Below, piece after piece: positions 21,501 through 30,545 of a DNA stretch of 64,000 nt. Under the pieces are notes generated by a model that ran no database searches, was not told where the DNA came from, and saw nothing but the letters and a program-made list of their open reading frames with translations. A program made the position numbers and the translations under genes. This stretch comes from Nocardia vinacea (GTDB taxonomy: Bacteria > Actinomycetota > Actinomycetes > Mycobacteriales > Mycobacteriaceae): NCBI RefSeq assembly GCF_035920345.1, contig NZ_CP109149.1:1240001-1304000 (forward strand). The letters run 5' to 3'. Numbering within the stretch: position 1 is the stretch's first letter; every line of letters starts with the position of its first letter.

Positions 21501-21931
21501 CGGTCACGACAGGTCGCGGCCAATTCGGCCGTCCCGCATGGCGTTCCGAGCTCACGGCTCCGGAACCGCCTGCCGCGCTGGTGATTTTGCGTGAACTGGT
21601 GCGACTGCGTGATGCCGGTTTGATCGAACCGCTGCCGATCGCCCCTTCCGCAACCGCCGTTTACGCCGAACGTCGCTTCCGCGGCTCGAACGCCGACGAA
21701 GCGGTGAGCGCGGCCGAACGCGAATTCAATGGCGGGCCCAATGGTCCCGGGCCGTTCGGTGACCACACCGACCGTCACCTGCGCTACATCTGGGGGCCTG
21801 CTCCTCGCCTGGATCACCTCTTGGCTGCCTCCGCGCCCGCGGGCGAGCCCGGCGAAACCACCCGCTTCGGGTCCCTGGCTCGTCGCATGTGGGCACCGCT
21901 GTTGGCCGCCGAGAGTCAGGGCCAGCCATGA
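18584..21931 (+). CDS. recC: Exodeoxyribonuclease V gamma subunit RecC
   Basis: RecC is the 1115-aa scaffold of RecBCD that splits DNA strands and scans for regulatory sequences during double-strand break processing. The N-terminus LHIHRAERADALAEALAALL and the following AVPAKGVERWL match mycobacterial RecC. Helicase-like motifs are degenerate, and the C-terminal nuclease-like fold lacks catalytic residues, as in the family. The start ATG 18584 has GAGAGGG upstream; the frame is open 70 codons earlier without similarity. recB follows after a 121-bp spacer. Confidence 0.96.
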   Translation: MPLHIHRAERADALAEALAALLAEPLPDAFAAEVVAVPAKGVERWLTQRLSTVLGVSGRSDGIAANIEFPSPGALVAEISAAASGVPAEADPWASEQVVWTLLRVIDASLGEPWSAVLARHLGVGEPAGHRVGRRYATAAHLVALFDSYAAQRPGLIKEWSAGSDTDGAGHAVPDDLRWQPELWRRLRAEVGVPSPAERLGAACARLRDEPDLVDLPGRLSLFGVTRLPSDQLAVLSALGERRDVHLWLAHPSPAMWAQLSGLPPAVARADDVSATVVRHPLLAGLGRDVRELQQRLVGAMDQHHAAVGSNQDGRQEDSGRTLLSALQSGIRDDVWPPEPASFPDRTVQVHSCHGSARQVEVLRECLLGLFAADHTLEPRDVLIMCPEVEAYAPLVRAAFGQKMVGSVESVGDSAHPAHLLRVRLADRGRGVTNPMLAVIAVMLELADGRVTVTQVLDLAASETVRRRCGFDDDDIERLREWAAESGARWGIGQRQRQAFGLADFAQNTLNSAVDRILLGVTADESSEDWLDLALPLDDVDSNDVDLAGRFAEFIDRLAVCLRDLRGPRPAHEWAAVLGRCLELLTDVPDSQAWVRTEARRELAAATEHAGDVPLRLADVGVLLSSRLAAQPTRANFRTGELTVCTMVPMRSVPHRVVVLLGLDDEIFPRTSGVDGDDVLARNPLLGERDARSEDRQLLLDAVLAATEQLLVFHTGADPVTGAHRPPAIPVAELLDALRAHVGAAGMDAVVTRHPLQGFDRRNFAAERPFSFDTVALAGAQAAGQPAQPRPAFLPEPLPALEPADVALADLISFVEHPVRAFLWQRLGLRVPEHEDDIADRLPIELDGLAKWELGERLLSARLTGADPSTQRAAEWRRGTLPPFGFGGAVLDEVESTVDKLVRAAMPEYEGAPRAVDIAVDLGNGRRLTGTVPEVRGESLVRTTFSRLAPKHRIAAWVSLLALAVTEDRSWRAVTTGRGQFGRPAWRSELTAPEPPAALVILRELVRLRDAGLIEPLPIAPSATAVYAERRFRGSNADEAVSAAEREFNGGPNGPGPFGDHTDRHLRYIWGPAPRLDHLLAASAPAGEPGETTRFGSLARRMWAPLLAAESQGQP

Positions 21932-22052
21932 GTCGGCGTACTGGTCGAATGGGACGGCACCTCGTCCGGCGCGCCTCCCGGATACGGGCGGGCGTCGGGT
22001 GGACGGTGGAGGCGAGCACCGGATTTGCCAGGCACGGGAAGGGGCGGCGGCG

Positions 22053-25000
22053 ATGACCATCGAGGACACCGCATTCGCAGCGCCCTCGCTGGACGCCGAC
22101 CGATTCGATCCCACCGGGCCGCTCCCTACCGGAACCACCGTGCTCGAGGCGAGTGCCGGTACCGGTAAGACGCATGCGATCGTCGGGTTGGCGGTGCGGT
22201 ATGTCGCCGAGATCGGGATCGATATTTCGCAGCTATTGCTGGTGACATTCAGTCGGGCCGCCACCCAGGAACTGCGGGAACGGACCCGAGACCGGTTCGT
22301 CGCGGTGGCAGCGGCACTGGCTGATCCGGAGACGGCTCGGGCCCATGCCGATGAGCTGATTCGGCTACTGGCGCAGGTGGATTCGGCCGAGGTACTGCTG
22401 CGGCGTCGGCGATTGCTCACCGCGCTTTCGGATTTCGATGCCGGGACGATTGCGACGACGCACAGTTTCTGCCAGCGAATGCTCGATGAGCTCGGCTTGG
22501 CGGGCGAACATGATCCCGGGTCGCGGTTGGTCGAGACGATCGATGATCTGATCGGCACGGTCGCCGATGACCTGTACCTGAACCGTTATGCCCGTGCGGA
22601 GCCGCCGTTTTCGCTGAAGGAGGCGCATACGCTGGCGCTGGCGGCGGTGCAGGATCGCCACGCCGTATTGGTGCCGAAGGGGGAGGGACCGGCGGGGGAG
22701 CGGGTCGCCTTCGCCGCCGCGGTGCGCGCGGAAACCGAGCGCCGCAAACGCCTCGCCGGACTGCGCGATTTCGACGATCTGCTGGTGCTGTTGCACGATG
22801 TGCTCGTCGATCCGGCGCACGGGCCGCGGGCCTGTCGCCGCATCCGCGACCGGTATCGGGTCGCCCTGGTCGACGAATTCCAGGACACCGATCCGCTGCA
22901 GTGGGACATCTTGCGGTTGGCGTTCCACGAGCATTCGACCTTGGTGCTCGTCGGTGATCCGAAGCAGGCCATCTACGCGTTCCGCGGCGCGGAGGTGCTC
23001 AGCTATCTCGACGCTGTCGCCCACGCTGATACCCGCAAGGAGCTCACCGACAACTGGCGCAGCGATGCGGGTCTGCTCGCCGCACTGGATCATCTGCAGG
23101 GCGGTGCGGCATTGGGGCACAAGGAGATCACGGTCTACCCGGTCACCGCGACCCGCGGCTGGTCGCGACTGTCCGGCCCCGAGGAACTGACGACGCCGCT
23201 GCGGATGCGGTGTCTGCCGCGCACGGGTGCGGGGCCGTTGAACAAGTCTGGATTCCCTGCGGTCGGGCGCATGCGGGCGAAGGTCGCCGAGGATCTCGCG
23301 GCGGATATCGTGCGGCTGCTCGAGTCCGGTGCGCTGTTCCAGGCTAAGACCGGACCGCGGCCGATCGGGCCCGGCGATATCGCGGTACTGGTGCGGACTC
23401 GATCTCAAATCGATGTGGTGCGAACCGCTTTGGACCGTGTCGGGGTTGCCTCCGTGCTTGCCGGTGGCACCAGCGTCTTCGCCACCAGCAGTGCGACGGA
23501 CTGGCTCTGGCTGCTGCGCGCGCTCGAACAGCCCCATCGCTCCGACCGTGTCCGCCTTGCCGCCTGCACACCGCTGCTCGGCGTGACGGCGGTTGAAATC
23601 GACAGCGGTGGTGCTGATCTCGTCGGTCGTATTTCCGCCCAACTGCGGGAGGCGGCCCGGCTGTTCGCGCGCGCGGGTTTCGCGGCGGTCTTCGAAAAGA
23701 TCTCCGCCGAAGCGAATCTGGCCCAGCGACTGCTCTCGGTCGAGAACGGCGAACGGGAGCTGACCGATCTGCGGCATATCGCGCAGCTGCTGGATCAGGT
23801 CGCGCTGAGCGAAGGTCTCGGCCTCACCGCGCTGACCCGCTGGCTGGCCGACCGCGTGCGCGATCCCGCCTCCGGATCGGTCGCCGACCGCAGCCGTCGC
23901 CTCGATCGCGATGCCGCCGCCGTGCAGATCGCCACCGTGCATGCCAGCAAGGGCCTCGAATTCCCCATCGTCTACCTGCCTTTCGCCTGGGACAATGCGA
24001 AGAACCCGTATCCGCAGACCCTGCTGTTCCACACCGACGACGGCGCTCGTGTACTCGATGTCGGCGGCCAGGATGCGTCCGGCTATGGCGAGCGCAAGCT
24101 GCGCAGTGAAACCGAGGAGGCGGGTGAGGAACTGCGGTTGCTGTATGTCGCGCTCACCCGCGCGATGTGCCAAATCGTCGCCTGGTGGGCACCCGCGATC
24201 ACCACCGCCAATTCGCCGCTGCATCGGATGGTCCTCGGCCGCCCGGACGGTGGGGATCTCGTGCCGAGTAAGGCGGCGGTGCCCGCGGATGCCGTTGCGG
24301 TGTCGATGCTTTCGGCCTGGGCCGCCGGTGCGCCGGAGGCCATTTCGGTGGAAGGCGTCGAGCACACCGATACGGTCGAGATCCGTCGCGTGCGTAGCGA
24401 ACTCCCGACCGGAGCCGTCGCCGCCGCGCACTTCGCCCGCACCATGGACCTGCAGTGGCGTCGCACCTCCTATTCGGCACTGACGGCAGGTGCGCACGAT
24501 GCCGCCATTCCCGAGGCCGAACCCGAGGACGACCGCGGCCCGTCCGACGAACCCGGCACGCCCCTTCTCGCCGAAACCGAGCCCGCGATCGCCGGTGCGG
24601 CCCCGTCCCTGATGAATGCGCTGCCCTACGGCGCCGAATTCGGCACCTTGGTGCACGGTGTGCTCGAGCGAATCGATACCGACGCACCGGATCTCGCCAC
24701 TGAGGTGCACACCCGCTGCCGTGCGGCCACCGACGAGCTGATGGCCGAGGCCGATCCGGTGGTACTCGGCAATGCCCTACTCGCGGTGCTGCATACCCCG
24801 CTCGGATTCGGTTGTCTCGCCGACATTTCCACCCGAGACCGGCTCAACGAACTCGACTTCGAGCTCCCGCTCGCAGGCGGTGACATTCCGGGTGCGCATA
24901 CGGTCACGCTGCGCCGGATCGCCGATCTGCTGCGAACCCATCTCCCGGCCGACGATTCCTTGTCCAGCTATGCGGACCAACTCGCGTCCCTGGACGACAC

Positions 25001-25400
25001 CCCGCTGCGCGGCTACCTCACCGGCAGTATCGACGCGGTACTGCGCATCATCGAAAACCCGGGCGCGCAACCACGATTCGTTATCGTCGACTACAAAACC
25101 AACCGCCTCGGCACCGGCGATCTCACCGTCGACCACTACACCCACGACCGCATGGCCGCCGAAATGCTGCGCTCGCACTACCCGCTGCAGGCCCTGCTCT
25201 ACGCGGTCGCCCTGCACCGCTATCTGCGGTGGCGGCTGCCCGGTTACGATCCGACGCGCCATCTCGGTGGTGCCCGCTACCTCTTCGTCCGTGGCATGAT
25301 CGGTCCCGAAACTCCGTCGGGCTGTGGTGTTTTCGACTGGAATCCGCCGGCCGCGCTGATCGTTGCCCTGTCCGATCTTCTGGCGGGGGAGGCTGCCTGA
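22053..25400 (+). CDS. recB: Exodeoxyribonuclease V beta subunit RecB
   Basis: RecB is the 3'-5' helicase and nuclease of RecBCD (1115 aa). Walker A is EASAGTGKTHAIVG (about residues 30-43), motif II VDEFQDTDP (about 273) and motif III GDPKQAIYAFRGA (about 307). Helicase motif V is HASKGLEFP and motif VI YVALTRA. The C-terminal nuclease has LVHGVLERID, an Asp in GSIDAVLRI, and the DYKTNR signature (about 1014). The start was placed at ATG 22053 by similarity; the long upstream open stretch overlaps the recC end and is not conserved. Confidence 0.97.
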   Translation: MTIEDTAFAAPSLDADRFDPTGPLPTGTTVLEASAGTGKTHAIVGLAVRYVAEIGIDISQLLLVTFSRAATQELRERTRDRFVAVAAALADPETARAHADELIRLLAQVDSAEVLLRRRRLLTALSDFDAGTIATTHSFCQRMLDELGLAGEHDPGSRLVETIDDLIGTVADDLYLNRYARAEPPFSLKEAHTLALAAVQDRHAVLVPKGEGPAGERVAFAAAVRAETERRKRLAGLRDFDDLLVLLHDVLVDPAHGPRACRRIRDRYRVALVDEFQDTDPLQWDILRLAFHEHSTLVLVGDPKQAIYAFRGAEVLSYLDAVAHADTRKELTDNWRSDAGLLAALDHLQGGAALGHKEITVYPVTATRGWSRLSGPEELTTPLRMRCLPRTGAGPLNKSGFPAVGRMRAKVAEDLAADIVRLLESGALFQAKTGPRPIGPGDIAVLVRTRSQIDVVRTALDRVGVASVLAGGTSVFATSSATDWLWLLRALEQPHRSDRVRLAACTPLLGVTAVEIDSGGADLVGRISAQLREAARLFARAGFAAVFEKISAEANLAQRLLSVENGERELTDLRHIAQLLDQVALSEGLGLTALTRWLADRVRDPASGSVADRSRRLDRDAAAVQIATVHASKGLEFPIVYLPFAWDNAKNPYPQTLLFHTDDGARVLDVGGQDASGYGERKLRSETEEAGEELRLLYVALTRAMCQIVAWWAPAITTANSPLHRMVLGRPDGGDLVPSKAAVPADAVAVSMLSAWAAGAPEAISVEGVEHTDTVEIRRVRSELPTGAVAAAHFARTMDLQWRRTSYSALTAGAHDAAIPEAEPEDDRGPSDEPGTPLLAETEPAIAGAAPSLMNALPYGAEFGTLVHGVLERIDTDAPDLATEVHTRCRAATDELMAEADPVVLGNALLAVLHTPLGFGCLADISTRDRLNELDFELPLAGGDIPGAHTVTLRRIADLLRTHLPADDSLSSYADQLASLDDTPLRGYLTGSIDAVLRIIENPGAQPRFVIVDYKTNRLGTGDLTVDHYTHDRMAAEMLRSHYPLQALLYAVALHRYLRWRLPGYDPTRHLGGARYLFVRGMIGPETPSGCGVFDWNPPAALIVALSDLLAGEAA

Positions 25401-27280
25401 TGACGTCGATCCAGTTGGCGCAGCGGGGAACCGGGCTGCTGCGCATATTCAACGAGGCCGGTGTGCTCTCCGCCGCCGACGTGCACGTCGCTCTCCGATT
25501 GGGCCGGATGGGCCGGGAAACCTCGGAAGAGGTGCTGTTCGCGGCCGCGCTCGCGGTGCGGGCGGTGCGTTCGGGTTCGGTCTGTCTGGAACTGCAGCGG
25601 ATGCGCGAGATCGGCGTCGATGCCGATGAAACCTGGGATGCGGGTGCGGGAATCGATCCGGCGACGTTGCCGTGGCCGGATATCGATTCGGTGGTCGCCG
25701 CGCTGCGGGTCAGTCCACTGGTGTGTGGGGGACCGGCTGGTCCGTTGCAGCCGTTGCGGCTGGTCGCGGGGCCATTGCTCTATCTGGACCGCTATTACCA
25801 GCAGGAGCAGACGATCCGTCGCGTGCTCACCGAGCGTTCCGGACATCATCCGAAGGTGGATCCGGCTATCGTGCGCCGCGAACTCGACCGGCTCTTCGAT
25901 GCCCCGGTCGGTGCGGCCCCGGACCGCCAGCGGATCGCCGCCGCACTTGCCGCGACGCACTGGACCACGGTGGTGGCGGGCGGGCCGGGTACCGGCAAGA
26001 CCCACACCATCGCCCGCATCCTGGCTCTGCTCGACGCGCATCAGCAGGCGCATCCGAAGTTGCCCGCACTGCGCATCGCCATGGCCGCGCCCACCGGCAA
26101 GGCGGCCGCGCGACTGCAGGAAGCGGTACGCGAACAGGCTGAATCGCTCGCACTGCCGGAGCTGACCGCCGCAACCTTGCATCGTCTGCTCGGTTGGCAG
26201 CGCGGCCGGGCGACCCGGTTCCGGTACCACGAATTCAACCGGCTGCCCTATGACGTGATCGTGGTCGACGAGACCTCCATGGTGTCGCTGACCATGATGA
26301 GCAGTCTGCTGGCCGCACTGCGCCCGGATACCCGCCTGGTGCTCGTCGGTGACCCGGATCAGCTCGCCTCGGTCGACGCGGGCGCGGTACTCGCCGATCT
26401 CGTCGCCGGACCCGTTGTCGGCGAACCGAATCCGGTTCTGGAACAGGTGCTCGGTGCGGAATCCATTGCAGTCGACGGTAATCCGGAGGCGCTGACCGAT
26501 CTGGAGCGAATCCGGCTGCGCGGCGGCATCGTCCGGCTGACCCGTGGCCGCCGCTTCGGGGGCAAGATCGCCGAACTCGCCGTCGCGGTCCGCGCGGGTG
26601 ATGTCGAGACCGCACTCGCACTGCTGCGGGCGGGCGGTGAAGAACTCTCACTCTGTACTCCCGAGGACACCCCAGCCGTCCGCGCCGATGTGGTGCGCGC
26701 CGCCCGCGAGGTCACCGCGGCCGCCCTGGACGGCGATGCCGCGGCCGCACTGACCGCCCTCGAATCCCACCGCCTCCTGTGCGCGCACCGCCAAGGTCCC
26801 TTCGGCGTCGAACGCTGGGACCGCATGGCCGGCGAATGGGCCGCGGCCGGTGGCGCGGGGCCGGACTCGCACCAGGCACCGTGGTATCCGGGTCAACCCC
26901 TGCTGGTCACCGCCAACGACCACGAGGCGCGCATCTACAACGGCGATACCGGCGTCATTGTGCGTATGCCCGACGGTTCGTTGCGTGCGGCCCTGCAGCG
27001 CGGCAGCGAACCCTATCTGGTGCACCCGACGCAATTTCCGGCCGTGGTCACGGTCTTCGCCATGACCATCCACCGCAGCCAGGGCAGCCAGTACGACACC
27101 GTCTCGGTCGTCCTGCCCGAACCCGAATCCACCCTGCTCACCAGGGAACTGCTGTACACGGCCATTACCCGCGCCCGCCGCCACGTGCGCATCATCGGCA
27201 CCGACGACTCCATCCGCGCCGCCATCGACCGCCGCGTCCTGCGTGCCAGCGGCCTGTCGCGCACCCCGGAGCCGCAGTGA
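25400..27280 (+). CDS. recD: Exodeoxyribonuclease V alpha subunit RecD
   Basis: RecD is the 5'-3' helicase of RecBCD (626 aa). The N-terminal helical region is followed by Walker A GGPGTGKTHTIARIL (about residues 195-209), a second GKAAARL motif, Walker B VVDETSMVS (about 290), and the C-terminal MTIHRSQGSQ and YTAITRAR motifs of superfamily 1. Its ATG shares one base with the recB stop (TGATG), so translation is coupled. The order recC-recB-recD is as in mycobacteria. Confidence 0.97.
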   Translation: MTSIQLAQRGTGLLRIFNEAGVLSAADVHVALRLGRMGRETSEEVLFAAALAVRAVRSGSVCLELQRMREIGVDADETWDAGAGIDPATLPWPDIDSVVAALRVSPLVCGGPAGPLQPLRLVAGPLLYLDRYYQQEQTIRRVLTERSGHHPKVDPAIVRRELDRLFDAPVGAAPDRQRIAAALAATHWTTVVAGGPGTGKTHTIARILALLDAHQQAHPKLPALRIAMAAPTGKAAARLQEAVREQAESLALPELTAATLHRLLGWQRGRATRFRYHEFNRLPYDVIVVDETSMVSLTMMSSLLAALRPDTRLVLVGDPDQLASVDAGAVLADLVAGPVVGEPNPVLEQVLGAESIAVDGNPEALTDLERIRLRGGIVRLTRGRRFGGKIAELAVAVRAGDVETALALLRAGGEELSLCTPEDTPAVRADVVRAAREVTAAALDGDAAAALTALESHRLLCAHRQGPFGVERWDRMAGEWAAAGGAGPDSHQAPWYPGQPLLVTANDHEARIYNGDTGVIVRMPDGSLRAALQRGSEPYLVHPTQFPAVVTVFAMTIHRSQGSQYDTVSVVLPEPESTLLTRELLYTAITRARRHVRIIGTDDSIRAAIDRRVLRASGLSRTPEPQ

Positions 27281-27294
27281 GCCTGACCTGGGAA

Positions 27295-27324
27295 TCTCAC
27301 GTTTTCCGCGCCACCGACGTCTAC
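27295..27324 (+). promoter_or_regulatory. Putative ECF-type promoter of the sigma/ogt operon
   Basis: TCTCACGTTT (27295-27304), 13 bases, then CGTCTAC (27318-27324). Taking TCTCAC as the -35 and CGTCTA as the -10, the spacer is 17 bases, typical for ECF sigma factors whose -10 often contains CGTC. The same two blocks with identical spacing recur at 29411-29440 before the second methyltransferase gene. The predicted start falls at about the GTG at 27330, so the mRNA may be leaderless. A perfect dyad AATCTCACG/CGTGAGATT (27293-27301 and 27329-27337) brackets the element. Confidence 0.6.
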
Positions 27325-27329
27325 CCAGC

Positions 27330-27809
27330 GTGAGATTGCCTCCGTTCGAGGAAGTGGTGGCCGAATACGGCCCGATGGTGCTGCGCGTGTGCCGGGCCGT
27401 GCTCGGTCCGACGGATGCGGCCGATGCCTGGTCGGAGACTTTTCTGTCGGCCCTGCGGGCCTATCCGGACCTCGACCCGAAGACGAATATCGAGGCGTGG
27501 CTGGTCACCATCGCGCACCGGCGCGCGATCGATGTGGGGCGCGCACTGACCCGCGCACCCGTTCCCGCCGAAACCCTGCCCGAACGCACCGCACGCGATG
27601 CCGACCCGGCCGATTACGACCCCGATCTGTGGGATGCGCTCGCGTCGCTGCCGACCAAACAGCGCCAAGCGGTGGCCTACCACTACCTGGCGGGACTACC
27701 ACACGCCGAGATCGCTCAACTGCTGGGCAATTCGACCGACGCTGCCCGCCGCGCCGCCGCCGACGGCCTCAAAACATTGCGCAAGCTCTACCCAAAGGAT
27801 CGAACATGA
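27330..27809 (+). CDS. ECF-type RNA polymerase sigma factor of the alkylation-repair operon
   Basis: This 159-aa protein has a sigma region 2 (FEEVVAEYGPMVLRVCRAVL through WLVTIAHRRAIDVGR, about residues 5-70) and a region 4 helix-turn-helix (LPTKQRQAVAYHYLAGLPHAEIAQLLG, about 108-135). No anti-sigma gene is adjacent. Its stop overlaps the ATG of the first ogt gene, so the two are co-translated. The start was placed at GTG 27330, just after the predicted -10 box. By position and by the repeated promoter motif it probably controls the repair genes; that is inference. Confidence 0.8.
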   Translation: MRLPPFEEVVAEYGPMVLRVCRAVLGPTDAADAWSETFLSALRAYPDLDPKTNIEAWLVTIAHRRAIDVGRALTRAPVPAETLPERTARDADPADYDPDLWDALASLPTKQRQAVAYHYLAGLPHAEIAQLLGNSTDAARRAAADGLKTLRKLYPKDRT

Positions 27810-28423
27810 TGGCCACTATCGACCGGGATCCGGACGGCCTCTTCGACGGCCTGAACCCGAACTCCGCCGAGATCCTGTCCCGATTGCGTCGACGGCTCGC
27901 CGCCGACGCCCAGGCCGCGGGCCTGCTCGACGTCGCCTACCGCACACTGGACACCCCCGTTGGTACCTTGCTGCTCGCGGCCACCCCTGTGGGCCTGGTG
28001 CGGGTCGCCTACCCCAACGAAAATCACGACACCGTGCTCGCTACACTCGCCGAGCGCATCAGCCCGCGCGTCCTGGCCGCCCCGGCGCGTCTAGATACCG
28101 CGGCACGTGAGATCGACGAGTACTTCACCGGTGCACGAACACAATTCGATCTGCCACTCGATCTGCGTTTGACCGTCGGATTCCGGCGCCAGGTGATCGA
28201 GCACCTGAGCGATATCGGCTACGGGCATCGCGAGAGCTACGCCGATGTCGCGGCGGCCGTTGGTAATCCGCGTGCGGTTCGCGCGGTCGGCTCGGCCTGT
28301 GCGCACAACCCGCTGCCGTTGGTCATCCCGTGCCATCGCGTGGTGCGCAGCGACGGGTCGATCGGCCAGTACGTCGGCGGCGTCACTGCCAAGACCACCC
28401 TGCTCACGCTCGAAGCGGCGTGA
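27806..28423 (+). CDS. ogt: Methylated-DNA-protein cysteine methyltransferase
   Basis: This suicide enzyme removes alkyl groups from O6-alkylguanine onto its own cysteine. The 205-aa protein has the N-terminal Ogt fold (DVAYRTLDTPVGTLLLAATP), the helix-turn-helix segment GYGHRESYADVAAAVGNPRAVRAVGSA with its arginine finger, and the acceptor motif IPCHRVV (Cys near residue 174). The ATG overlaps the sigma factor stop (ATGA), and the next gene starts 11 bp downstream. A 35-residue N-terminal extension precedes the standard domain. Confidence 0.93.
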   Translation: MMATIDRDPDGLFDGLNPNSAEILSRLRRRLAADAQAAGLLDVAYRTLDTPVGTLLLAATPVGLVRVAYPNENHDTVLATLAERISPRVLAAPARLDTAAREIDEYFTGARTQFDLPLDLRLTVGFRRQVIEHLSDIGYGHRESYADVAAAVGNPRAVRAVGSACAHNPLPLVIPCHRVVRSDGSIGQYVGGVTAKTTLLTLEAA

Positions 28424-28434
28424 AAGGAGATATT

Positions 28435-29154
28435 ATGAAAACCCTTGCCGCACTGGAGGAACGAGTCGAAGCGCAACAGTGGCACGATCTGATCGAGGAG
28501 ATCGACGCCTACGGCTGCGCCCAGACCGGCCCGCTGCTGAGCCCGGACGAGTGCGCCGAATTCGCCGCCATGTGGGCGGATCTGGACCGCTTCCGGTCGA
28601 CGATCGATATGGCCCGCTATCGATTCGGTCAGGGCACCTACCGGTACTTCGCCGATCCGGTCCCCACACCGATCATGCGGCTGCGCAGGGCTTTCTACCG
28701 CAAATTACTGCCCATCGCCCGCACCTGGGCCGACCGACTCGGCGACCCTACGCCATGGCCCGACGATTTCGACGATTGGCTCGCCGCCTGCCATGCCGCC
28801 GGGCAGGCAAAGCCGACGCCGATTCTGCTGCGCTACACCGAAGGTGACTGGAACGCGCTGCACCGGGACCTCTACGGCGAGCTCGTCTTCCCGCTGCAAG
28901 TCGTGATCGGCCTGGACCGCCCCGGCATCGACCACACCGGCGGTGAATTCCTCCTGGTCGAACAACGCCCCCGCGCGCAATCCAAGCCGACGGTCACCAT
29001 CCTGGAACAGGGCCACGCACTCGTCTTCACCACCCGAGATCGGCCGACCCCATCGTCGCGCGGTTGGTCCCGTGCTCCGATTCGCCACGGCGTCAGTCGA
29101 ATTCGCAGCGGCCACCGACACACCCTGGGCCTGGTCCTGCACGACGCCGTATGA
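28435..29154 (+). CDS. 2-oxoglutarate/Fe(II) oxygenase, DNA-damage associated
   Basis: This 239-aa protein has the iron-binding HxD in LHRDLYGE (about residue 143), a distal RHGVSR His (about 222) and an Arg in HRHTLGL for 2-oxoglutarate, the dioxygenase triad. It matches the family annotated as oxygenases acting on damaged DNA (PF09859, functionally AlkB-like), which is often found beside Ada or Ogt genes. AAGGAG precedes ATG 28435. It lies between two methyltransferase genes in one transcription unit, so oxidative dealkylation of DNA is likely but not proven. Confidence 0.85.
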   Translation: MKTLAALEERVEAQQWHDLIEEIDAYGCAQTGPLLSPDECAEFAAMWADLDRFRSTIDMARYRFGQGTYRYFADPVPTPIMRLRRAFYRKLLPIARTWADRLGDPTPWPDDFDDWLAACHAAGQAKPTPILLRYTEGDWNALHRDLYGELVFPLQVVIGLDRPGIDHTGGEFLLVEQRPRAQSKPTVTILEQGHALVFTTRDRPTPSSRGWSRAPIRHGVSRIRSGHRHTLGLVLHDAV

Positions 29155-29155
29155 G

Positions 29156-29410
29156 ATGTACACCCTGACCGGCGCCGACGGCCGCCCGTATCCCAGCCCC
29201 ACCCCGGGCCGATACGGCGGTCACCGGCGCGGGAAGCTGTACGGCCGCCTCGACTGCCCCTCGGCCGTGCGGGCCTTGGCGCGCGGCCACTACCGCGCCC
29301 ACCGTGTCTTCTTTGCCGACGAACAAACCGCTATCGCCGCCGGTTACCGACCGTGCGCGATCTGCCTGCCCGCCGCGTATGCGGCATGGAAAGCCCGCTC
29401 CGGCAGATGA
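29156..29410 (+). CDS. Free-standing Ada-type metal-binding domain protein
   Basis: This 84-aa protein resembles the N-terminal zinc domain of Ada, which in E. coli accepts methyl groups from phosphotriesters. The segment VFFADEQTAIAAGYRPCAICLP matches Ada's conserved end of the domain with its CxxC pair (about residues 64-67). One further Cys is in LDCPSA (about 33). Ada has four zinc cysteines, but only three are seen here, so a His may replace one or the site may be non-zinc. It begins 1 bp after the oxygenase stop. It has no AraC domain and no methyltransferase domain. Confidence 0.8.
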   Translation: MYTLTGADGRPYPSPTPGRYGGHRRGKLYGRLDCPSAVRALARGHYRAHRVFFADEQTAIAAGYRPCAICLPAAYAAWKARSGR

Positions 29411-29440
29411 TCTCACGTTTCGGTGCTGGAGAGCGTCTAC
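29411..29440 (+). promoter_or_regulatory. Second copy of the putative ECF-type promoter
   Basis: TCTCACGTTT at 29411-29420, 13 bases, then CGTCTAC at 29434-29440: the same blocks and spacing as at 27295-27324, with an unrelated spacer sequence. It lies 29 bp before the start of the second methyltransferase gene, leaving room for a short leader that includes AGAGGAG. Conservation of the two blocks but not the spacer is what a shared sigma factor would produce. Confidence 0.6.
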
Positions 29441-29469: not shown

Positions 29470-29985
29470 ATGATGTCCGATACCGCCATCGCACGACTGG
29501 TGCACGGCTCGACACTGGGCAATCTGTTGATCGAAGCGAACCAGGTCGGCGTCACCCTGGTTGCGTTCACCGATGAGTTGCCGACCGAATCAACCGGCGA
29601 GAATTCCACGGCGCGTGAGCATCTGGAGACCGCCGCAGACCAAATCGACGAATACCTCACCGGCGAACGCCGGCAGTTCACAGTGCCGATGGATCTGACG
29701 GATATGAGCGCGTTCGATCGAGAGGTTCTGCATATGCTCGAGGCGACCACGGGATACGGCCGGACAACCACCTACGGTGCCCTGACCCGGCAACTCGGCC
29801 GCACCCCCGCCGACGCCCGCAAGATCGGCGCCGCGCTGGCACGCAACCGCCTGCTGCTCCTGCTCCCGTGCCACCGCGTGCTCGGGGCCGATGGATCCCT
29901 GACCGGGTATGCGGGTGGGCTGCCCGCCAAACGAGCCCTGATCGACCTCGAATCGGCCGACCTCGTGCTGCCGCTGGGCGGATAA
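29470..29985 (+). CDS. Second methylated-DNA cysteine methyltransferase-like protein
   Basis: This 171-aa paralogue of Ogt has the acceptor motif LPCHRVL (Cys about residue 138) and a DNA-binding region GYGRTTTYGALTRQLGR. The loop before the active site reads RNRLLLLLPCHRV, where most family members have N-P-x-P before PCHRV, and the N-terminal domain is short. It may repair a different alkyl adduct or act as an alkyltransferase-like sensor. AGAGGAG precedes ATG 29470 (ATG 29473 is an alternative). A copy of the operon's promoter motif lies just upstream. Confidence 0.85.
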   Translation: MMSDTAIARLVHGSTLGNLLIEANQVGVTLVAFTDELPTESTGENSTAREHLETAADQIDEYLTGERRQFTVPMDLTDMSAFDREVLHMLEATTGYGRTTTYGALTRQLGRTPADARKIGAALARNRLLLLLPCHRVLGADGSLTGYAGGLPAKRALIDLESADLVLPLGG

Positions 29986-30032: not shown

Positions 30033-30545
30033 ATGACGAGCGCTGAGTTGTTGGCCGATGCCTTCGGACGGGTGCGGGAGAATGTGCGCGGCGCGGTCGA
30101 GGGACTCGGACAGGACGAGCTGGCGGCGCTGATCGATCCGGACGCCAACTCCATCGCCTGGCTGATCTGGCATCTGACACGGGTGCAGGACGACCACGTC
30201 GCGGACGTGGCGGGGCTGGAACAGGTGTGGACGGCGGCGGGCTGGGCCAAACGGTTCGACCTGCCGTTCGCCGATGAGGCGACCGGCTATGGGCACCGCG
30301 CCGGGGAGGTCGCCGAACTCGGCGGTATCTCCGCCGAGCTGCTGTTGGGCTACTACGACGCCGTGCACACGCAGACGATCGACTACGTAACCGGACTCAC
30401 CGATGCCGACCTGCCCCGCATCGTCGACATCCGCTGGGATCCGCCGGTCACCCTGGGTGTGCGGCTGATCAGCGTTGTGGACGACGATATCCAGCACGCA
30501 GGCCAGGCCGCCTTCATTCGCGGAGTTCTGCTGCGCCGCAGGTAG
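30033..30545 (+). CDS. DinB/DUF664-family protein (mycothiol transferase-like)
   Basis: A 170-aa four-helix-bundle protein. The metal-binding histidines of the DinB fold fit IWHLTRVQDDH (about residues 47-57) and the late DIQHAGQAAFIRG (about 155). In actinobacteria such proteins are often mycothiol-dependent transferases used in detoxification, though the substrate is unknown here. It follows the methyltransferase gene by 47 bp and ends 2 bp from the convergent TetR gene. Co-transcription with the repair genes is possible. Confidence 0.8.
   Translation: MTSAELLADAFGRVRENVRGAVEGLGQDELAALIDPDANSIAWLIWHLTRVQDDHVADVAGLEQVWTAAGWAKRFDLPFADEATGYGHRAGEVAELGGISAELLLGYYDAVHTQTIDYVTGLTDADLPRIVDIRWDPPVTLGVRLISVVDDDIQHAGQAAFIRGVLLRRR

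Follow-up and report, generated by a model that had tools for sequence, protein, structure and literature searches.

A putative self-activating sigma factor module for DNA-alkylation repair in Nocardia vinacea, with a methyltransferase as its candidate regulator

What controls a sigma factor that has no anti-sigma gene beside it and is followed at once by the gene of a DNA repair enzyme? The question is raised by a locus of Nocardia vinacea within a stretch of 64,000 nucleotides (here called the window; NCBI RefSeq assembly GCF_035920345.1, contig NZ_CP109149.1, positions 1,240,001 to 1,304,000), in which the gene of a sigma factor of the extracytoplasmic function (ECF) type is coupled to ogt1, the gene of an O6-methylguanine-DNA methyltransferase. 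Positions are those of the window, and all of the features described lie on the + strand. With high confidence, the sigma factor can be said to direct its own operon and a second methyltransferase gene, ogt2, as judged from the promoter boxes that the two share. The explanation as a whole, a self-activating alkylation-repair module with Ogt1 as both inhibitor and sensor, is held with slightly better than even confidence, and the release of the sigma factor by Ogt1 is a step that we infer.

In the proposed mechanism, the ECF sigma factor would guide RNA polymerase to TCTCAC-N17-CGTCTAC and would transcribe its own operon (the sigma gene, ogt1, and the genes for an Oxygenase-NA and an Ada_Zn-like protein) as well as the separate ogt2. 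Ogt1, the coupled partner, would restrain the sigma factor stoichiometrically through an N-terminal extension. An alkyl group taken from damaged DNA would pass irreversibly onto Cys176 of Ogt1, altering its grip and freeing the sigma factor. New repair enzymes would then be made until unalkylated Ogt1 is again in excess.

The promoter boxes carry the first part of this scheme. Box 1 (27295..27324) lies before the sigma gene and was defined by motif search and by the footprint in related loci; box 2 (29411..29440) lies before ogt2 and was defined by motif search and by the boxes at the second ogt genes of relatives. Two block pairs with equal spacing had been reported at 27295 and 29411, and both are found there. 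The pattern TCTCACGTT-N14-CGTCTAC has exactly two exact matches in the 10.36-Mb genome, both of them in the window. There are no matches at one or two mismatches, and the 26 at three are at background level, a reversed control pattern giving 22 matches at three or fewer mismatches across the whole genome. In 100 shuffles of the window, the mean number of box pairs was 0.00. A third genome site, reached with a looser pattern at a spacing of 16, was rejected because it sits within a reading frame that by eye is xylulokinase-like.

The layout of the genes agrees with the preliminary description as well. Box 1 stands ahead of an ECF sigma gene (27330..27809) that starts with GTG at 27330 and overlaps the start of ogt1 (27806..28423) by 4 bases, and box 2 stands ahead of a second ogt-like gene, ogt2 (29470..29985). 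The Oxygenase-NA gene and the Ada_Zn-like gene, which that description did not include, also sit between the two boxes. Between the CGTCTA of box 1 and the GTG of the sigma gene are six bases, so the GTG is the predicted transcription start, and the sigma mRNA is predicted to be leaderless, beginning at 27330; for ogt2, the start is predicted just past box 2, at about 29446.

Are the boxes kept elsewhere? A scan of named genomes with the sigma-factor alignment yielded at least 80 loci, and the 80 listed (the named loci) come from Nocardia, mycobacteria, Rhodococcus, Hoyosella, Saccharopolyspora, Streptosporangium, Streptomyces, and others; among the loci listed, Nocardia anaemiae and N. vinacea are the closest named relatives of this genome. 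A further count uses 226 sigma loci, which include repeats of some genomes and hold 212 distinct sigma sequences. In all 80 named loci, a box with two mismatches or fewer over 13 fixed positions is found upstream of the sigma gene. In 70 of them it lies 20-38 bases (mostly 35) ahead of the aligned sigma start, the usual distance placing the predicted transcription start at the start codon of the sigma gene. In the other 10 it lies further upstream, in nine cases in front of a second ogt gene located ahead of the sigma gene and in L102 at 172 bases. Of 8,000 random stretches of about 165 bases drawn from the same loci, real sites included, 82 came within two mismatches. The named loci have 29 second ogt genes on the same strand as the sigma gene, and 27 of them are preceded by a box (L068 and L072 are without). 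The box before the sigma gene persists in both Nocardia and mycobacteria, whose genes upstream of it are not the same.

For the 212 distinct loci, the looser pattern [TC]CTCAC-N16-18-CGT was applied. It lies within 90 bases in 145 loci, with a spacing of 17 in 144 of these, and only further upstream (up to 900 bases) in 36. Of random 110-base stretches taken from these loci, real sites included, about 1% contain the pattern, a background that covers the short range. Among distant relatives (L148-L161, with 40-46% sigma identity), 11 of 14 keep TCTCAC or CCTCAC at 34-50 bases ahead of the start, and the -10 core is CGTT in place of CGTC. In one of them, L161, a TCTCACGTT element starts at the sigma stop codon, ahead of ogt1, and could be a separate ogt1 promoter.

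One could consider the paired boxes a chance occurrence or the operator of a repressor and not a sigma-dependent promoter. The looser box is present within 900 bases in 181 of the 212 distinct loci, and the 31 without it speak for this alternative and against a sigma-dependent promoter; some of them differ by one core base (L044, L056, L058). The promoter starts here are predicted ones. Set against this are the empty shuffles, a pair that is unique in the genome, and a 17-base spacing and a position relative to the start codon that are both fixed, and the alternative is regarded as extremely unlikely. The mark of an autoregulated ECF promoter, a -35/-10 pair conserved ahead of both the sigma gene and its targets, is found here. 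The search of this and related genomes that had been suggested earlier returned a pair that is unique in this genome and conserved across many genera at fixed spacing, and the proposal that the sigma factor turns on both its own operon and ogt2 is very probably right, as far as conserved boxes can tell.

The sigma factor itself has the domains of its class. Of its 159 residues, 10-72 match Sigma70_r2 and 100-150 match Sigma70_r4_2, both above the Pfam cut-off, and TIGR02937 is above its cut-off as well. Regions 2 and 4 are thus present without other regions, as in an ECF (group IV sigma-70) factor, and region 2.2 carries an ordinary acidic motif (by eye). Overlapping genome samples, searched at an E value of 1e-30, show it in 39 of 396 genomes at the level of the phylum, in 44 of 394 at that of the class, and in 64 of 397 at that of the order. 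Relatives of the sigma factor also occur on three plasmid records, H1-H3, from Tsukamurella, Arthrobacter, and Rhodococcus.

In a 2022 review (PMC8999054), ECF122 is given as an ECF group that lacks an anti-sigma factor, has a 6-O-methylguanine DNA methyltransferase as its conserved neighbor, and works by an "unknown mechanism"; it belongs to the classification of Casas-Pastor et al. 2021, as cited there. This review is the one paper naming ECF122 that the literature search found. The sigma factor of Nocardia fits ECF122 and is therefore not a new kind: such a methyltransferase is its neighbor in 221 of the 226 loci, and no anti-sigma gene is adjacent. The assignment is by genomic context, with the ECF122 reference WP_057211282.1 (Cellulomonas sp. 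Root930) outside the comparison; a homology search from a further relative of the sigma factor returned no Cellulomonas-named protein among the 120 matches listed. The absence of an adjacent anti-sigma gene, stated in the preliminary description, holds for known families, which gave no match in the seven window proteins scanned and none by eye among 29 recurring neighbor clusters. It may not hold in full, since the adjacent Ogt1 with its conserved extension is the best candidate for that role.

If Ogt1 has this role, how closely does it follow the sigma factor? Ogt1 comes after it in the 221 loci mentioned, or in 207 of 212 when counted by distinct sigma sequence; four of the five loci that lack it stop at a contig end. 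An overlap of 4 bases between the two genes is seen in 198 of 221 loci, although the script favored such a start where one existed. In 59 Nocardia genomes, there are 21 sigma genes and 21 Ogt1 genes (at least 59% identity), all in the same 19 genomes; the other 40 have no such Ogt1, their Ogt matches being weaker, at 42% identity or less. One of these weak matches, in G019, aligned from residue 9 and was examined by eye, but it was rejected as an Ogt1 since its ATG lies near the first strand and it has no extension pattern. There is also a decayed third cluster (L274, G006:C43; read by eye) in which the sigma gene and the catalytic half of Ogt1 are lost together, while the ogt2-like gene, the Ada_Zn-like gene, the box, and the Ogt1 extension are kept (the Ogt1 fragment has 55% identity). 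Six single-frame fusions of sigma and Ogt are clean by eye (P0122, P0123, P0124, P0125, P0132, P0138), with an internal start possible; the remainder of the 20 fetched fusion candidates and long relatives look frameshifted, truncated, or unfused and were not counted. By these sequences, the sigma factor and Ogt1 travel together through much of Actinomycetota. Two Nocardia genomes have two sigma-Ogt1 pairs each, G047 (L007, L023) and G006 (L021, L024), and could serve to study cross-talk.

Ogt1 (PF01035 and PF02870) has an intact PCHR site. Its Cys176, Asn168, Arg159, and Tyr145 are found in 206 of 206 sequences, two of which have GCHR or ACHR in place of PCHR. We take the catalytic Cys (in CHR), Asn, Arg, and Tyr to be active-site residues, and by these residues Ogt1 has the active site of an active O6-methylguanine methyltransferase. 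What sets it apart is its start. Solved relatives align from residue 41 or later in 46 of 46 cases, leaving uncovered a 42-residue N-terminal extension, the candidate sigma-binding segment (codons at 27806..27931), which was defined by these matches and by conservation. Within the extension, Ala35 is conserved in 205 of the 206 sequences, Asp42 in 199, Leu31 in 192, Leu27 in 181, and Arg30 and Leu41 in 167 each. The pattern is absent by eye in the three that were read of the four other methyltransferases of the same genome (all but L174). Ogt1 is the best candidate regulator of the sigma factor because it is paired with it, has its catalytic residues intact, and carries a conserved N-terminal extension that lies outside the solved relatives.

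The pairing was also studied by direct-coupling analysis of 206 of the 226 sigma-Ogt1 pairs (effective number 128), after 12 duplicates, five loci without Ogt1, two in which Ogt1 runs off the stretch, and one of deviating length were dropped. Couplings between the two proteins are above six full shuffles, and the mean of the top 10 is above all eight within-clade shuffles. Linked genes share ancestry, however, and the coupling test therefore decides nothing on the role of Ogt1.

Several observations weigh against Ogt1 as the inhibitor-sensor. The strongest single coupling, 2.00, is not above the fine-clade shuffles (1.94-2.07). The extension is not enriched among the sigma-Ogt1 couplings (it accounts for 20 of the strongest 100, where 17 would be expected), which show no preference for either sigma domain. 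It matches no Pfam family, anti-sigma or other, at an E value of 0.1, and it may pack on Ogt1 itself. Several apparent sigma-Ogt fusions look frameshifted. The fifth locus without Ogt1, L242, is a real exception, with a sigma gene and a box and no ogt in the 1,329 bases downstream that were examined.

With these points counted, Ogt1 is still rather likely to be a direct regulator of the sigma factor, as inhibitor or as co-activator. The specific form, in which the suicide repair enzyme regulates the ECF sigma factor by binding it with the extension and its self-alkylation is the "on" signal, is tentative and falls somewhat short of an even chance. DNA alkylation is a likely inducer, as judged from gene content alone.

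In the co-activator form, the sigma factor would be weak alone, and alkylated Ogt1 would bring it to the promoter in a way akin to that of methylated Ada with RNA polymerase. This form shares the evidence of the sigma-Ogt1 pairing with the inhibitor form, the sigma-Ogt fusions suit a joint complex, and the C-terminal domain of E. coli Ada (1sfe) is among the closest solved relatives of Ogt1. However, with both of its domains and the acidic motif in region 2.2, nothing suggests that the sigma factor is inactive alone, and the loop would be a positive feedback without an obvious off switch. The inhibitor form is more likely, and the co-activator form is considered improbable.

Another possibility is that there is no dedicated sensor. 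Ada, LexA, or a general stress sigma factor would start the locus, the sigma factor would amplify itself, and Ogt1 would be cargo. Transcription-controlled ECF groups are known (PMC8999054, section 3.1), and two Ada-AraC proteins of the same genome could feed in. Such a scheme leaves unexplained why Ogt1, unlike the other cargo, is nearly inseparable from the sigma factor and coupled to it, and it leaves the extension unexplained as well. It is thought unlikely, if less so than the co-activator form.

The other cargo is less constant. Of the 80 named loci, 33 have an Oxygenase-NA gene, 25 have an Ada_Zn-like gene, and 9 have AlkA, the AlkA-like glycosylase lying near the sigma-ogt pair in L060, L062, L068, L069, L072, L085, L097, L100, and L101. 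In the window, the Oxygenase-NA gene (28435..29154; PF09859, 267.8 bits) codes for a protein that, according to the Pfam annotation, acts on damaged DNA. It is followed by the gene of a stand-alone Ada_Zn-like protein of 84 residues with three cysteines (29156..29410; PF02805, 29.1 bits against a cut-off of 23).

Could the Ada_Zn-like protein be the sensor, reading methyl phosphotriesters and relaying the signal to the sigma factor? It is in the same operon, and its PF02805 match is above the cut-off. However, the position that we take to correspond to the methyl acceptor Cys38 of Ada, in the C-x3-C motif, is Gly in 54 of 57 copies and a gap in three (by eye), so the protein should not act as Ada does. 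The acceptor cysteine of a methyl-phosphotriester sensor is likewise lacking in the 84-residue protein itself, which by eye has glycine there (compare CRPSC in the genome's Ada protein), and the family's own motifs are GGHRR, YGRLDCPSA, and YRPCAVC. Equally weak Ada_Zn matches are also found in Nocardia genomes without the sigma factor, and the gene's 25 of 80 named loci compare with Ogt1 after sigma in 221 of 226. Without an acceptor cysteine and in so few loci, the protein was rejected as the sensor, a role that is very improbable for it. In a sigma-less Nocardia (L273, G019:C57), an ogt without the extension stands beside an Oxygenase-NA-like frame with an Ada_Zn match nearby, which means that cargo of the Oxygenase-NA/Ada_Zn type also exists without the sigma factor.

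Does the module take the place of Ada? The preliminary description had an adaptive response run by a sigma factor instead of an AraC-type activator, and this does not stand. The same genome carries two proteins that combine Ada_Zn, an AraC-type helix-turn-helix, and AlkA_N. One of them, of 542 residues, has the CRPSC motif and overlaps a further ogt-like frame. With two such Ada-AraC proteins in the genome, the sigma module supplements the Ada system and is no substitute for it. Across the 59 Nocardia genomes, Ada_Zn is above the cut-off in 58, compared to 19 with the sigma factor.

The surroundings of the locus hold other genes. ogt2, identified by Pfam and by reading of the sequence, is a methyltransferase without the extension, and 47 bases past it begins the gene of a mycothiol transferase of the MST_Rv0443 family (30033..30545; NF047843, 244.7 bits against a cut-off of 170). 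The gene has the same position in loci L025-L027 and is possibly on one transcript with ogt2. The region 21729-27280, upstream of the sigma gene, holds two large reading frames on the + strand; the first resembles a helicase by eye, and the second has RecD-type domains by Pfam. Among the 80 named loci, a RecD-like frame ahead of the sigma gene is found in Nocardia only.

What would this mean for bacterial stress responses? For the ECF122-type family, a promoter and a minimal regulon can now be named, together with a likely inducer (alkylation, by gene content) and a candidate regulator. If the module works as proposed, much of Actinomycetota would have a sigma-based counterpart of Ada, and this would be a class of sigma control whose repair enzyme both removes the damage and counts it. 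If the Ogt1 step is true, bacteria would have a further way of turning an irreversible repair reaction into a signal for transcription.

Gene coupling and autoregulation are familiar from known sigma-partner pairs. As in known coupled pairs, the partner here may respond by conformational change (PMC8999054); unlike them, it has no known anti-sigma domain and would be a repair enzyme. With ECF122 as treated in the parts of that review used here, the sigma factor shares the lack of an anti-sigma factor and the 6-O-methylguanine DNA methyltransferase neighbor, and to these a promoter and a regulon, neither given in those parts, are now proposed to be added. The closest parallel in function is the Ada adaptive response (E. 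coli Ada, or Ada-AlkA proteins with Ogt), in which alkylation-repair genes are likewise under a locus-encoded activator and a suicide methyltransferase is, as is likely here, the sensor. In that response, methylated Ada aids RNA polymerase. The module of Nocardia differs in that its activator is a sigma factor and not an AraC-type protein, and its Ada_Zn-like protein lacks the acceptor cysteine; the two systems coexist in the same cell's genome.

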